The position numbers and the translations under genes are program-made. A stretch of 64,000 nt of DNA, taken from NCBI RefSeq assembly GCF_013912375.1, contig NZ_JACETV010000004.1, positions 496,001-560,000 on the forward strand, given 5' to 3'. The notes under the pieces are model-generated. The model searched no databases. It worked only from the letters and a program-made list of their open reading frames with translations, and was not told where the DNA came from. Below, in pieces: positions 16,701 through 59,019 of the stretch (positions within the stretch are counted from its first letter, which is position 1; every line of letters begins with the position of its first letter). Source of the stretch: Emticicia sp. BO119 (lineage in GTDB: Bacteria > Bacteroidota > Bacteroidia > Cytophagales > Spirosomataceae).

Positions 16701-17231
16701 TTATTCGGGATTCTCCAAAGCAATCTGAATATGCCCTAAATGATGCACACAATGCCATGCCGCCATGTGTAAGGCTTGCGCCAAAGTCAGGTTCATCTGT
16801 CGGCCTAAATGAAAGAAAGTTCTGCTGAAATCTTCGGAGGACATCGTTTTTAGTAAATGTGTCCATCGTTTATGGGTAGCTTCCAGTAACAGGAGTGCAT
16901 CAGCCAGCGGTACACTGGGTACTTCGGGATTATTGGCCCAGCCATTGATATTCGGGCCATAGCCTTGCGGATTATCTTCACATAGTGCCTGTTTGAAACG
17001 GGCAAAATGCAGGATGTGCATATCTGAGATATGAACCACCAAACTGTGGATACTCCATGCTCCTTCACGATACGACTTTGCTAACTCATCTGCGGAGAGG
17101 CTCTTTGTCAATTGCTCATACTTAGCCGGATATTGCTCAATAATGCTGATGTTCTGAGCTATTGCTTCGTCAGAATAGCTATTCTCGGGTGTCCATTTAC
17201 CGATTGGAAACTTACGCTCTTCGAGAGTCAT
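16701..17231 (-). CDS. DinB/YfiT-family putative metal-dependent hydrolase or thiol transferase
   Basis: A 176-aa protein of the DinB-like four-helix family, YfiT branch. It starts MTLEERKFPIGKWTPENSYS. The three metal-binding His positions appear in SLVVHISDMH and in AAWHCVHHLGHIQIA near the C-terminus. YfiT relatives are annotated as bacillithiol transferases or Zn-dependent hydrolases; which applies here is unknown. The frame is open to a TTG at 17261, but the ATG at 17231 gives the usual family N-terminus. It precedes serBA by 55 bases on the same strand, with fold-back element A upstream. Confidence 0.8.
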   Translation of the reverse strand: MTLEERKFPIGKWTPENSYSDEAIAQNISIIEQYPAKYEQLTKSLSADELAKSYREGAWSIHSLVVHISDMHILHFARFKQALCEDNPQGYGPNINGWANNPEVPSVPLADALLLLEATHKRWTHLLKTMSSEDFSRTFFHLGRQMNLTLAQALHMAAWHCVHHLGHIQIALENPE

Positions 17232-17354
17232 TGCTTTAGGGAGGTTTTGTTGCAAACTCAAATTTACAGACTATTTTAGTAGTAAAAATGAGCTAAGCTC
17301 TTGATTTTCAATAATTAAAGGAAATTTCAAGAATATTCTTGATATAATACAAAT

Positions 17355-17513
17355 GAACCTGTTTAAACTTTTTATTTAATGATGAAAATGTGCAGGTTTT
17401 CGATTAGACGAAAAGAAAATTGAGGACGTAGTAGAACTACGTACGAAATTTTCTCTGAAGTATAATCGAAAACCTGCCATTTGTAGTCGAAAGAAATAAG
17501 TTTAAACAGATTC
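17355..17513. repeat. Fold-back element A (nested inverted repeats, ~160 bp)
   Basis: The 159-bp stretch folds on itself in four nested steps. The outer arms are 17355-17370 and 17498-17513. The middle 15-bp arms are 17392-17406 (GCAGGTTTTCGATTA) and 17463-17477 (exact complement). Inner arms are AGAAAATT (17414-17421) and AATTTTCT (17447-17454). The tip is ACGTAG-TAGAA-CTACGT (17426-17442). It lies between the end of yidD and the start of the DinB gene. A second element of the same design is at 38754-38914. No protein is encoded. It may be a mobile palindrome (REP/MITE-like) or a structured RNA. Confidence 0.75.
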
Positions 17514-17563
17514 AAAATCAATAGTTGATGAAGAAGATTTGCAAATATAGTAAATTCTGAGGA

Positions 17564-17773
17564 TTATGGAACGGGGTCATATCCATGACCACCCCATGGA
17601 TGGCAGCGGCCAATGCGCTTGACAGTGAGTAATAAACCCTTGAAAAAACCATATTTCTGAAATGCCTCAACCGAGTACTGGGAGCAGGTAGGCGTATAGC
17701 GACAGGAGGCAGGAAACCAGGGAGAAATCCCGGCCTGATACAAACGCACAAGAAATATGGCAACGTATTTCAT
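17564..17773 (-). CDS. yidD: Membrane protein insertion efficiency factor YidD
   Basis: A 69-aa YidD. The pattern is complete: [19 protein letters not shown], the [10 protein letters not shown] cluster with conserved Cys and Tyr, [15 protein letters not shown], and [17 protein letters not shown] at the C-terminus. YidD assists membrane-protein insertion with YidC at the inner membrane. It usually sits next to rnpA and yidC; here it instead ends a ubiE-porT-yidD series, beginning 3 bases after the porT-like gene. It is very probably co-transcribed with those genes. Confidence 0.95.
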
Positions 17774-38729: not shown

Positions 38730-38753
38730 TTTAATTAGGGGTTAGGATTTATA

Positions 38754-38914
38754 GAATATGTTTGAATATGGTTATTCTGGCTGAAAAGAACAGATTTTTG
38801 AGCAAGACAAGGCGTGTTTTGTAGACGTAGCAAGCAGCTACGACGAAAAAACACAACGAAGTATTGCTTAAAAAGATGTCTTTGTATGCCGAATCATAAT
38901 GGTTAAGCATATTC
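38754..38914. repeat. Fold-back element B (nested inverted repeats, ~160 bp)
   Basis: Same design as element A. The outer arms are 38754-38781 and 38888-38914 (about three quarters complementary). The middle arms are 38791-38805 (CAGATTTTTGAGCAA) and 38864-38878 (TTGCTTAAAAAGATG). Inner arms are GTGTTTT (38814-38820) and AAAACAC (38848-38854). The tip is CGTAGC-AAGCA-GCTACG (38826-38842). The core shares GACGTAG, CTACG, ACGAAA and GAAGTAT with element A in the same order, while the stem sequences differ. It lies between the end of the NUDIX gene and the start of the permease gene. Confidence 0.75.
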
Positions 38915-38919
38915 TTGAG

Positions 38920-39318
38920 TTAATCGATGAAATTATGATTTTTCAGGTGGTCAAAAATAAGCTGGTCAACGGCAGAACTTTTATCTTTATCTGCATAGGT
39001 CAACCAGGCTAATTCTTCAATTTCAGAATCGGTTTTCAATTCTCCCCGATAATTTGCTTGATAACAGGTCATGATAACCATAATACCTTTAGGGTGTCCA
39101 TGAGCCTGTGCTTCAAATTTTCCTAAGAATTGCAGAGATTCGGGTATCAGGTCAACCGTCAATTCTTCTTTTATTTCCCGAAGTAAAGCTTCTTCATCAC
39201 TTTCTCCTGCCTCACGCTTACCCCCCGGAAAATACAAGGTATCTTTCCCTCTGCTTCGCGTGCTTAAAACCTTACGGTCTCTGATATAGAGCCAGGCAAT
39301 TTTATCTATCCATCGCAT
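38920..39318 (-). CDS. NUDIX hydrolase
   Basis: A 132-aa NUDIX pyrophosphohydrolase. The NUDIX box is intact: GGKREAGESDEEALLREI then KEELTVDL, with the metal-binding R-E-x2-E-E core. YFPGGK just before it is the usual strand. The protein is a single domain, so it may clean up oxidised or other nucleoside diphosphate derivatives; the substrate cannot be told. It is four bases after the start-proximal permease gene (39323-40978) and probably co-transcribed with it. Confidence 0.9.
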   Translation of the reverse strand: MRWIDKIAWLYIRDRKVLSTRSRGKDTLYFPGGKREAGESDEEALLREIKEELTVDLIPESLQFLGKFEAQAHGHPKGIMVIMTCYQANYRGELKTDSEIEELAWLTYADKDKSSAVDQLIFDHLKNHNFID

Positions 39319-41217: not shown

Positions 41218-41428
41218 AGGTTTAAGAATTATTAAAATTAATTAGTTGAACGAAATAGATTTAACAGTTCAATTATATCAAAAACTTTCCCGGATACTTT
41301 GAAAACACAGACTTAAGTCAGAAATTTAGCAGAGCCTGTTCAGGGACAACAAGTCTTGATTACAATCCACATAACAACTATAGGTATAGAAGAAATGATG
41401 GGCAGGAAAGGTGACCAAAGCAGACCAT

Positions 41429-41458
41429 AAAAGGTTACCAATATGGTGGGAACCTTTT
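41429..41458 (-). repeat. Isolated inverted copy of the 30-bp palindromic repeat core
   Basis: These 30 bases are the exact reverse complement of repeat units 1 and 5 of the array at 58539-58868. The unit is AAAAGGTT...AACCTTTT with 12-bp arms (one mismatch) around six bases. It lies in the leader of the alcohol dehydrogenase gene and supplies a spurious in-frame ATG at 41443. In the RNA it would form a hairpin followed by a U-rich stretch. Confidence 0.85.
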
Positions 41459-45313: not shown

Positions 45314-45470
45314 AATCTCTCCTGATTTTAATAAAACAATACACAAAATCTATACCACACTCATTTACCTACTTTTGACTCTCAATTATCAATAATTTCG
45401 GTAAGGTATAAATTTCTTTTCACTAATATAAACAAGTTTTCCTTAAAAAACGTTTTCTTTGCAAAACTTA

Positions 45471-45556
45471 TCTCAAAAGGGGTGCCTCAATATAACGGGC
45501 TGAGATTATACCCATCGAACCTGATGCAGGTAATTCTGCCGAAGGGAGAGAGAATA
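45471..45556 (+). promoter_or_regulatory. TPP (thiamine pyrophosphate) riboswitch
   Basis: A textbook THI element: GGGGTGCC at 45479-45486, GGCTGAGATTATACCC at 45498-45513, GAACCTGATGCAGGTAAT at 45518-45535, and TCTGCCGAAGGGAGA at the 3' side, with a TCTC/GAGA P1 closing. It sits in the leader of the TonB-dependent receptor gene, whose ATG is about 125 bases downstream. A short hairpin (GAGCC-GTTTT-GGCTC, 45621-45635) follows it and may be part of the expression platform. Confidence 0.95.
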
Positions 45557-45678
45557 GTACTATAGTGTGCGCAGCTACAGAACTATTTACGATTTCCAAT
45601 TAAAATTTTGTTTCACCAAAGAGCCGTTTTGGCTCACAAGATTTTACTCCTTTACCTTGTTAAAGTTTTCGTTATGCA

Positions 45679-58443: not shown

Positions 58444-59019
58444 TCAGGTGTTGTTTGTTGAAAACTTTTTTGCGAAGATAAGGAAAAAATGAATAGCGAC
58501 GGATTGGAACTTATTTAAACCAGGGCTGTCCTCATTCAAAAAGGTTCCCACCATATTGGTAACCTTTTGGGGTTCATTTTTACTGATTTTTACTTTCACA
58601 GACGCTATTTTCCAAAAGGTTCCCACCATACAGGTAACCTTTTGGAGTTCATTTTTACTGATTTTTGCTTTCACATCCTCTATTTTTATAAAGGTTACCA
58701 CCGTACAGGTAACCTTTTGGAGTTCATTTTTACTGACTTTTGCTTTCATAGCCTCTTTTTTTTAAAAGGTTCCCACAGTATTGGTAACCTTTTTGGGTTA
58801 CATTTTACTCAATTTTGCTATCATAGACTCTTTTTTCAAAAAGGTTCCCACCATATTGGTAACCTTTTCTGGGAACGTTTTAGCCCCTGTTATTTTGACA
58901 AACTCCGAAACTATTTGTTGGTAGGTATAGCCAATCACTCTTTTAAATACGGCTCTACTACTTCCGGTTACCTTTATATAGGCTAATTCTTTGCAGGTTC
59001 TGACTTTCTTTTTCTTCAT
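58444..59019 (-). pseudogene. Broken repeat-containing reading frame
   Basis: A minus-strand frame begins with a start codon at 59019 and reads about 50 non-repeated residues (MKKKKVRTCKELAYI, then VFKRVIGYTYQQIVSEFVKI), then 25-residue repeats of the form KVTNMVGTF plus KKES...AKISKNELQ. In-frame stops in unit 5 (58798-58800) and unit 4 break it; a second open part continues to 58444 in the same frame. A once longer repetitive protein that decayed, or a frame with no protein role at all, would both look like this. I recognise no family. Confidence 0.4.
58539..58868. repeat. Five-copy tandem array, period 75 bp, with 30-bp palindromic cores
   Basis: Cores start at 58539, 58614, 58689, 58764 and 58839, exactly 75 bases apart. 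Units 1 and 5 have identical cores; 2-4 differ by a few bases. Each core is AAAAGGTTnCCA-N6-TGGnAACCTTTT. The 45 bases between cores are also similar between units (GTTCATTTTTACTGATTTTT and variants), so this is a true tandem repeat, not CRISPR. 75 is a multiple of three. On the minus strand it reads KVTNMVGTF plus about 16 residues per unit, with two stops; the plus strand also stays open. Confidence 0.92.

Follow-up and report, generated by a model that had tools for sequence, protein, structure and literature searches.

A palindromic MITE of Emticicia sp. BO119 and a folded core that recurs in elements with unrelated ends

Element A and its mobility

What kind of sequence folds back on itself over nearly its whole length between two genes? 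The question is raised by positions 17355–17513 of the window, that is, the whole 64,000-nt stretch of the Emticicia sp. BO119 genome analysed here, for which a first-pass annotation had proposed a non-coding nested palindrome, either transposase-mobilised (REP/MITE-like) or a structured RNA. The fold of this 159-bp sequence (element A; + strand, which is the core-sense strand) reached −60.4 kcal/mol, compared with −24.6 (sd 3.2) for 200 shuffled sequences, none of which equalled it (z −11.4). The near end-to-end palindrome was thereby confirmed, with its arms and the tip hairpin (ACGTAG-TAGAA-CTACGT, 17426–17442, + strand) as described; the opposite strand also folds (17340–17530, z −11.8). 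Element A lies, as annotated, between a DinB-family gene (16701–17261, − strand; Pfam DinB_2, E = 3.2e-18) and yidD (17564–17773, − strand; Pfam YidD, E = 4.3e-31), both of which are outside the element and to both of which its core-sense strand is antisense. No ORF of at least 60 aa overlapped 17355–17513, in agreement with the annotation, and element A is short and non-coding.

Four more full-length copies (73–78% identity) were retrieved by BLAST from the same genome (6.57 Mb), all starting and stopping at the same bases (GAACCTGTTTAAACTT ... AAGTTTAAACAGGTTC). The element ends are GARNMTGTTTRA inverted repeats, of which the left one, GAACCTGTTTAAACTT, occupies 17355–17370 (+ strand) and is identical in the copies, and the right one, reading AAGTTTAAACAGATTC on the + strand, occupies 17498–17513 (− strand), as delimited from the sequence and the ends of the copies. 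The flanks are AAT on the left (17352–17354) and AAA on the right (17514–17516), presumably a target duplication that has decayed into an AAT/AAA pair, judging from the copies and the empty sites. Shorter elements of the same genome share the element A ends, including two of 97–101 bp (L007 and L010) without a core match. The genome also holds a MITE of approximately 170 bp without the core (L016–L019 and L047), with ends GAGGCTGTTTAAACTTA / AAGTTTAAACAGGTTC and five near-identical copies.

The second element of identical design that had been annotated at 38754 is real and has the same design, but it belongs to another family with different ends and stems. Element B is a 161-bp MITE (38754–38914, + strand) recognised by its fold, its ends and five further copies covering more than half of its length in the BLAST search of its own genome; the surrounding region (38740–38925) folds with z −7.1, and the ends, near GAGYMTGTTTAAATTTTG in family B, delimit the element. 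The end pattern GARNMTGTTTRAA occurred 27 + 29 times in genome G000 and 52 + 56 times in the sister genome G008, compared with 5 + 10 and 8 + 10 for the reversed pattern, respectively. Perfect 3-bp direct repeats flanked 20 of the 37 element-sized end pairs in G008; family B accounts for 13 of these, where the repeat is always TTA or TAA, and family A for 7, with other triplets. Among 12 genomes searched for the empty site of element A, the flanks met directly in three sister genomes (G001, G002, and G008), where the sites read ACAAAATATCAATAG; in the other nine, no alignment reached the junction.

Insertion sequences with related ends were also recovered. The first (L102; 863 bp, own genome) has family B ends and a TAA duplication, and the second (L101; 949 bp, G008) has an AAT duplication and ends close, though not identical, to those of family A; an autonomous partner with identical ends was thus found in the same genome for family B, and only a close partner, in G008, for family A. 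Each codes for a DDE transposase containing a DUF4096 domain, and L102 is assigned to the IS5 family by NCBIfam (159.8 bits against a cut-off of 110), with L101 slightly under the same cut-off (101.7 bits). Neither L101 nor L102 was matched by R2, the covariance model of the core described below, so that the MITEs of families A and B are not simple internal deletions of these two sequences, and the idea that they arose from the parent insertion sequence through an internal deletion was rejected.

The inverted-repeat ends, 3-bp duplications, empty sites and IS5-family partners with matching ends identify element A as a MITE rather than a REP, and we hold this with very little doubt. The MITE half of the earlier proposal of a mobilised palindrome therefore stands, and the REP half falls on the length of approximately 160 bp, the terminal inverted repeats and the DDE partners. 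The annotation had also allowed for a chance palindrome, with no further copies and a fold no better than shuffled sequence; copies were found, and together with z −11.4 they refute it. Inverted double cores (see below) do resemble REPIN dimers in layout, but given the strength of the fold, the many copies, the length of ~160 bp, the terminal repeats and the 3-bp duplications, we regard both chance and a REP moved by a RAYT tyrosine transposase as scarcely credible.

The core behind different ends

Families A and B differ in their ends and stems and have similar internal loops. A covariance model built from the cores of both families (R1; 11 training cores), the check that the annotation had suggested, recovered 15 places of families A and B in the own genome (E < 1e-9) and 49 matches in G008, at least one place there being counted on both strands; 6 of 38 genomes of relatives, the own genome included, matched at E ≤ 1e-4. 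All three R1 matches in one relative, G016 (L082, L087, and L090), are situated roughly 120 bp from the end of a contig, which would fit an assembly broken at the repeats. Several B copies carry a GC-rich hairpin, GCGGTCCGCCGCTGCGGG, inserted at their AAGGC loop (L052, L054, L074, and L096).

The core follows the layout stem1-AGAC-AA-GGCG-stem2-tip-stem2'-CAAC-GMA-GTAT-stem1', in which the loops are fixed and the stems free. The core of element B (38793–38875, + strand; R2 73.7 bits, the core itself belonging to the R2 training set) contains, by its sequence and the cross-genome loop pattern, the 5' loop strand AGACAAGGCG (38805–38814, + strand) and the 3' loop strand CAACGAAGTAT (38854–38864, + strand). 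The core of element A occupies 17394–17474 (+ strand; L001 1540–1620; R2 25.3 bits, E = 2.3e-4 in 31 kb with filters off), where the R2 alignment and the sequence place the internal loop at AGAC-GA (17406–17411, + strand) and GAA-GTAT (17457–17463, + strand).

Public genomes were then searched with the loops only (AGACAAGGCG N25-50 CAACGMAGTA), the taxa recovered being a sample. At least 119 stretches of named genomes carry the core, with 120 hits among the matches listed, 119 of which span 55–61 nt within a permitted range of 45–70. The named carriers among these matches include Bacteroidota, Gemmatimonadota, Pseudomonas, Nitrosomonas, Thiobacillus, Moraxella, Psychromonas, a Neisseriaceae bin, many Clostridia, Fibrobacter, a Calditrichales genome, an Endomicrobia bin, Nitrospira, Latescibacterota, and Sulfurimonas, which we take to represent about ten phyla, many of them as metagenome bins. 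Two cultured strains, Pseudomonas umsongensis DSM 16611 and Psychrobacter celer DSM 23510, are also among the carriers. After redundancy, edge and N filters, 56 of the 120 listed hits were left, and in 48 of these 56 elements at least 8 of the 10 stem 1 positions were paired, compared with a mean of 3.6 (maximum 10) when arms were exchanged between elements. There were 77 usable cross-phylum cores; the 43 with identities under 80% made up alignment A2, and alignment A3, the source of R2, consisted of 31 rows (27 from A2 plus 4 of our own); because 16 A2 rows were dropped for different stem 2/3 lengths, the A3 pair counts lean to the rows that were kept. Covariation in A3 was 0.617, compared with 0.171 in shuffled alignments (0 of 500 as high) and at most 0.254 when slid. 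Helix 1 was paired at 93.5%, both partners having changed in 10 of its 13 pairs, and helices 2 and 3 were paired at 79.4 and 51.6%, respectively. A second internal loop, outside the search pattern, recurred as well, often as GCAG opposite CAAG or CGAG (GMAG / CRAG).

The arms extend for a median of 53 nt, giving elements of approximately 160 bp in total, and the ends of the core-bearing elements are unrelated, for example AGAACCTGTCTTCATAAG, ATACTAATACCTRATARAAAGTAGA, and GTGTCCTGTCTCGCCGATA, and further AGGAACGATGAAATAATAAA, AGTACTCTGTTAACTC, and TACGAATTACATTTTATAATGACGG. The ends of G216 were plentiful (67 forward and 100 reverse; controls, 13 and 19, respectively), and no clear insertion sequence with them was found. 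That one core is shared among elements with unrelated ends in distant bacteria is, in our judgement, nearly as secure as the MITE assignment. The MITE is a known kind of element; a core shared irrespective of end type is new as far as the searched literature goes, which covered few subscription papers and yielded no cross-phylum MITE core.

The core might nevertheless be functionless, its pairing produced by arm-to-arm copying at stalled replication forks and its loops retained by common descent from an old element. Long palindromes do correct their arms, and pairing in helix 3 reaches only 51.6% for the given structure. Arm correction would, however, erase asymmetric loops, and these persist across phyla where the stems are saturated; moreover, the second loop (GMAG / CRAG) recurs outside the search pattern and the module outlasts changes of ends. 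We consider a functionless core unlikely, and return below to the mutational bias that it would involve.

The reach of R2 was assessed on several sets. The model matched 12 of 26 sources tried, including, outside its training set, one family A copy (L004), two C-type elements (L077 and L079), one locus from another genus (L084) and two viral contigs (L264 and L197); the other 14 gave no match, four A copies among them. It matched all 18 genomes picked for a loop hit, at 1 to at least 150 places each. At E ≤ 1e-4, matches were obtained in 104 of 398 Pseudomonadota, 16 of 398 Bacillota, and 8 of 345 Bacteroidota genomes (search-centre genome included in each), and these counts and copy numbers are low estimates because of strict filters and because only 11 to 13 candidates were scored per genome. 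A loose scan of viral sequences yielded at least 120 stretches, and stems were present only in L197 among the 80 listed; the best 12 of 153 viral pattern places were inspected, and L264 and L197 were taken as true. Nothing was gained from searching phages with L052 or the Correia query, or plasmids with element B.

As a control, 79 viral loci picked for the loop pattern (L197 left out) scored at most 23.2 bits with R2. Element A scored 25.3 bits with filters off and was missed with default filters, and its siblings L002, L005, and L083 scored 21.7–23.2 bits, inside the chance range of loop matches. Its place in the superfamily accordingly derives from the 75%-identical sibling L004 (37.7 bits) and from copies in G157, whose ends (GAACTC) are similar to those of family A and which reach 51.7 bits; element A is a diverged, weak member.

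The strand signal and a proposed role of the fold

If the constraint acted on double-stranded DNA, arm mismatches of the G-U and A-C types should be equally frequent. We counted them in 51 of the 56 listed elements on an alignment favouring neither type. G-U exceeded A-C in the inner arm (41:6) and in the outer arm (111:49), with stem 2 not significant (12:5, p = 0.14). Within the own genus the ratio was 74:22. Per element, 37 had more G-U, 8 had more A-C, and 12 were equal (57 elements, N unfiltered). It thus seems to be the fold of one strand that matters, and this strand-specific fold is probably under selection. The proposal of a structured RNA is upheld to the extent of a structured single strand, which the covariation and the excess of G-U over A-C support, with RNA itself only favoured over single-stranded DNA. 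A functionless core would explain the same excess by strand-specific mutation: C-to-T changes through cytosine deamination on the exposed sense strand could produce it without selection.

A host function in cis was weighed against the gene context. An RNA hairpin could end or stabilise neighbouring host transcripts, with the copies kept by the host; the copies are mostly intergenic, and PMC10969869 reports, for the Correia element, RNase III cleavage of transcripts at its ends, and also promoters that it carries. With genes defined as plain ORFs of at least 90 codons, 57 copies were nevertheless sense and 53 antisense, and 22 lay between convergent and 35 between divergent genes (of the 120 listed places, 30 fell at an edge and 13 lay within an ORF; the sets overlap in some genomes, so that a few elements are perhaps counted twice). 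The excess of G-U, counted here without de-duplication, was alike whether copies lay sense (89:25) or antisense (53:20) to genes (p = 0.48). Element A, moreover, is antisense to both neighbours and missing from three sister species. A host cis element was rejected on the 57:53 orientation, and we judge this reading very unlikely. Local GC skew likewise showed no preference (49 of 111 positive, p = 0.25). Since the excess is equal in either orientation and the elements show no preference relative to genes or local GC skew, the constraint seems independent of the final place of the element.

A second, inverted core was present in 12 of 82 loci, some of them from one genome, at 98–124 bp start to start and always with the sense core first, so that either single strand of such a locus carries one sense core. 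Three other loci depart from this rule (L488, a direct pair; L459, antisense first at 265 bp; L469, with cores about 1 kb apart). Pseudomonadota also yielded large fold-back elements with GGGTCTGTTGAC-type ends (L476, L485, L497, and L500), the first three having a CCC-GGG linker flanked by two inverted cores.

The fold could alternatively act as single-stranded DNA during replication, transfer or strand-displaced transposition, its loops being read by a transposase or a host replication protein. Strand-specific pairing irrespective of insertion orientation fits this equally well, and where two inverted cores are present, each strand of the DNA has one sense core. The strong purge of A-C compared with G-U (41:6) from the inner arm, on the other hand, suits RNA wobble better, the GC skew is without preference, and the partners found are DDE transposases, which act on double strands. 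A role as single-stranded DNA thus appears improbable to us, to about the same degree as a functionless core.

We therefore prefer an RNA reading, which may be put together as follows. Judging from the ends, the duplications, the empty sites and the matching insertion sequences, element A (~160 bp) is mobilised by a DDE transposase of the IS5 family that acts in trans on its terminal inverted repeats and duplicates 3 bp of target. The module that it carries comprises stem 1, an asymmetric internal loop (AC-AA-GG / C-GMA-GT), stem 2, a looser second internal loop and the tip. Because it occurs with unrelated ends in many phyla, the module appears to be a separate unit joined to different ends, not the leftover of one insertion sequence, and the transposases presumably differ among end types outside IS5. 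The excess of G-U suggests that one strand is held in its folded state by selection along most of its length, and since the fold is kept in copies of both orientations, it would serve the propagation of the element, not an adjacent gene. The sense strand may be a folded RNA produced during element activity, whose internal loops would be gripped by a widely conserved host partner, with RNase III-type enzymes or the transcription apparatus as candidates; such a partner might make the insertion tolerable or help mobilisation. RNA is somewhat favoured over single-stranded DNA, the whole chain up to RNA seems about evenly poised, and any particular host partner is doubtful.

In its boldest form, the reading is that the fold module, most likely as RNA, would be an ancient selfish unit independent of transposase type, combined with unrelated ends across phyla (the Correia element being one local form) and kept because a universally conserved partner, on which spread or harmlessness would depend, is bound by the sense strand in its folded form. 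We tentatively assign this a probability of roughly 0.4. MITEs are usually viewed as decayed insertion sequences with meaningless centres; here this view is turned round, conservation being greatest in the centre, which is found across phyla behind changing transposase ends. The shared core connects elements that were described separately, Correia among them, and one small motif makes a role of MITE centres testable. The recurrence of the fold suggests a common function that has so far gone unrecognised, and the orientation-independent G-U signature points to a life-cycle step outside the usual picture of trans-mobilisation by DDE enzymes.

Comparison with known systems

The annotation had recognised no published family, and Rfam bore this out: in the window, only tRNA and TPP models reached the gathering score, none of them on elements A or B. 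All hits in permissive Rfam scans of four element stretches were far under the gathering score, the lowest E-value (0.0038) belonging to a plant microRNA model that scored 23 bits where its gathering score is 245. A known RNA family was rejected accordingly. The TPP riboswitch lies at 45468–45565 (RF00059, 58.5 bits). Elsewhere in the window, 58460–58909 contains five 75-bp tandem repeats, the AAAGGTTCCCACC part of which has an inverted relative 17 kb away (41424–41458).

ERIC, found in 5375 of 5426 E. coli genomes, resembles element A as a palindromic, intergenic, mobile repeat with, by eye, a C-AA-G / C-GCA-G step. R2 with filters off gave no match at E ≤ 1 on one E. coli ERIC locus (L503), and on this single locus ERIC was rejected as a core member. 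The IS5-family sequences share or approach the MITE ends (L102 those of family B, L101 those of family A) and, unlike the MITEs, have a transposase gene and no core. The bcr1-type repeats of Bacillus cereus are mobile, with a conserved fold and compensatory changes; they are likened to element A by description, not by sequence. REPs and REPINs with RAYT are also intergenic hairpins with inverted pairs, and they differ from element A in length, terminal repeats, target duplications and partner type. A REP is a tagged palindrome without target duplication, and REPs measure 20–40 bp (PMC3733652). A REP/REPIN reading was rejected on the length of ~160 bp, the terminal repeats and the 3-bp duplications.

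Among known elements, the core was recognised in the Correia element of Neisseria. The 107-bp Correia repeat matched two gonococcal records at 100% and scored 38.4 bits with R2 (E = 1.4e-8 in 6.2 kb). One gonococcal record (L502, NZ_CP119140.1; 2.17 Mb) is labelled a plasmid, and its size and Correia content suggest a chromosome. The Correia stretch ACAAGGCG occupies its R2 core place, with GGACAAGGCG, GCAG, CAAG, and CAACGC at their model places; the 3' loop reads GCC where other cores read GMA. The ends differ, TATAGTGGATTAAA with a TA-type target in Correia against GAACCTGTTTAAACTT with 3-bp duplications in element A, so that the Correia inverted repeat ends are absent from element A, which does carry the characteristic core (25.3 bits; element B, 73.7 bits). 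The Correia element (CREE, nemis) is itself a MITE, some 107 or 155 bp in length (PMC2229807). PMC5039591 describes CREE as Neisseria-only and, for one gonococcal strain, reports RNA-seq support for transcription of 95% of the ncRNAs beside or overlapping CREE. The Correia ends may be confined to Neisseria; the Correia core is not.
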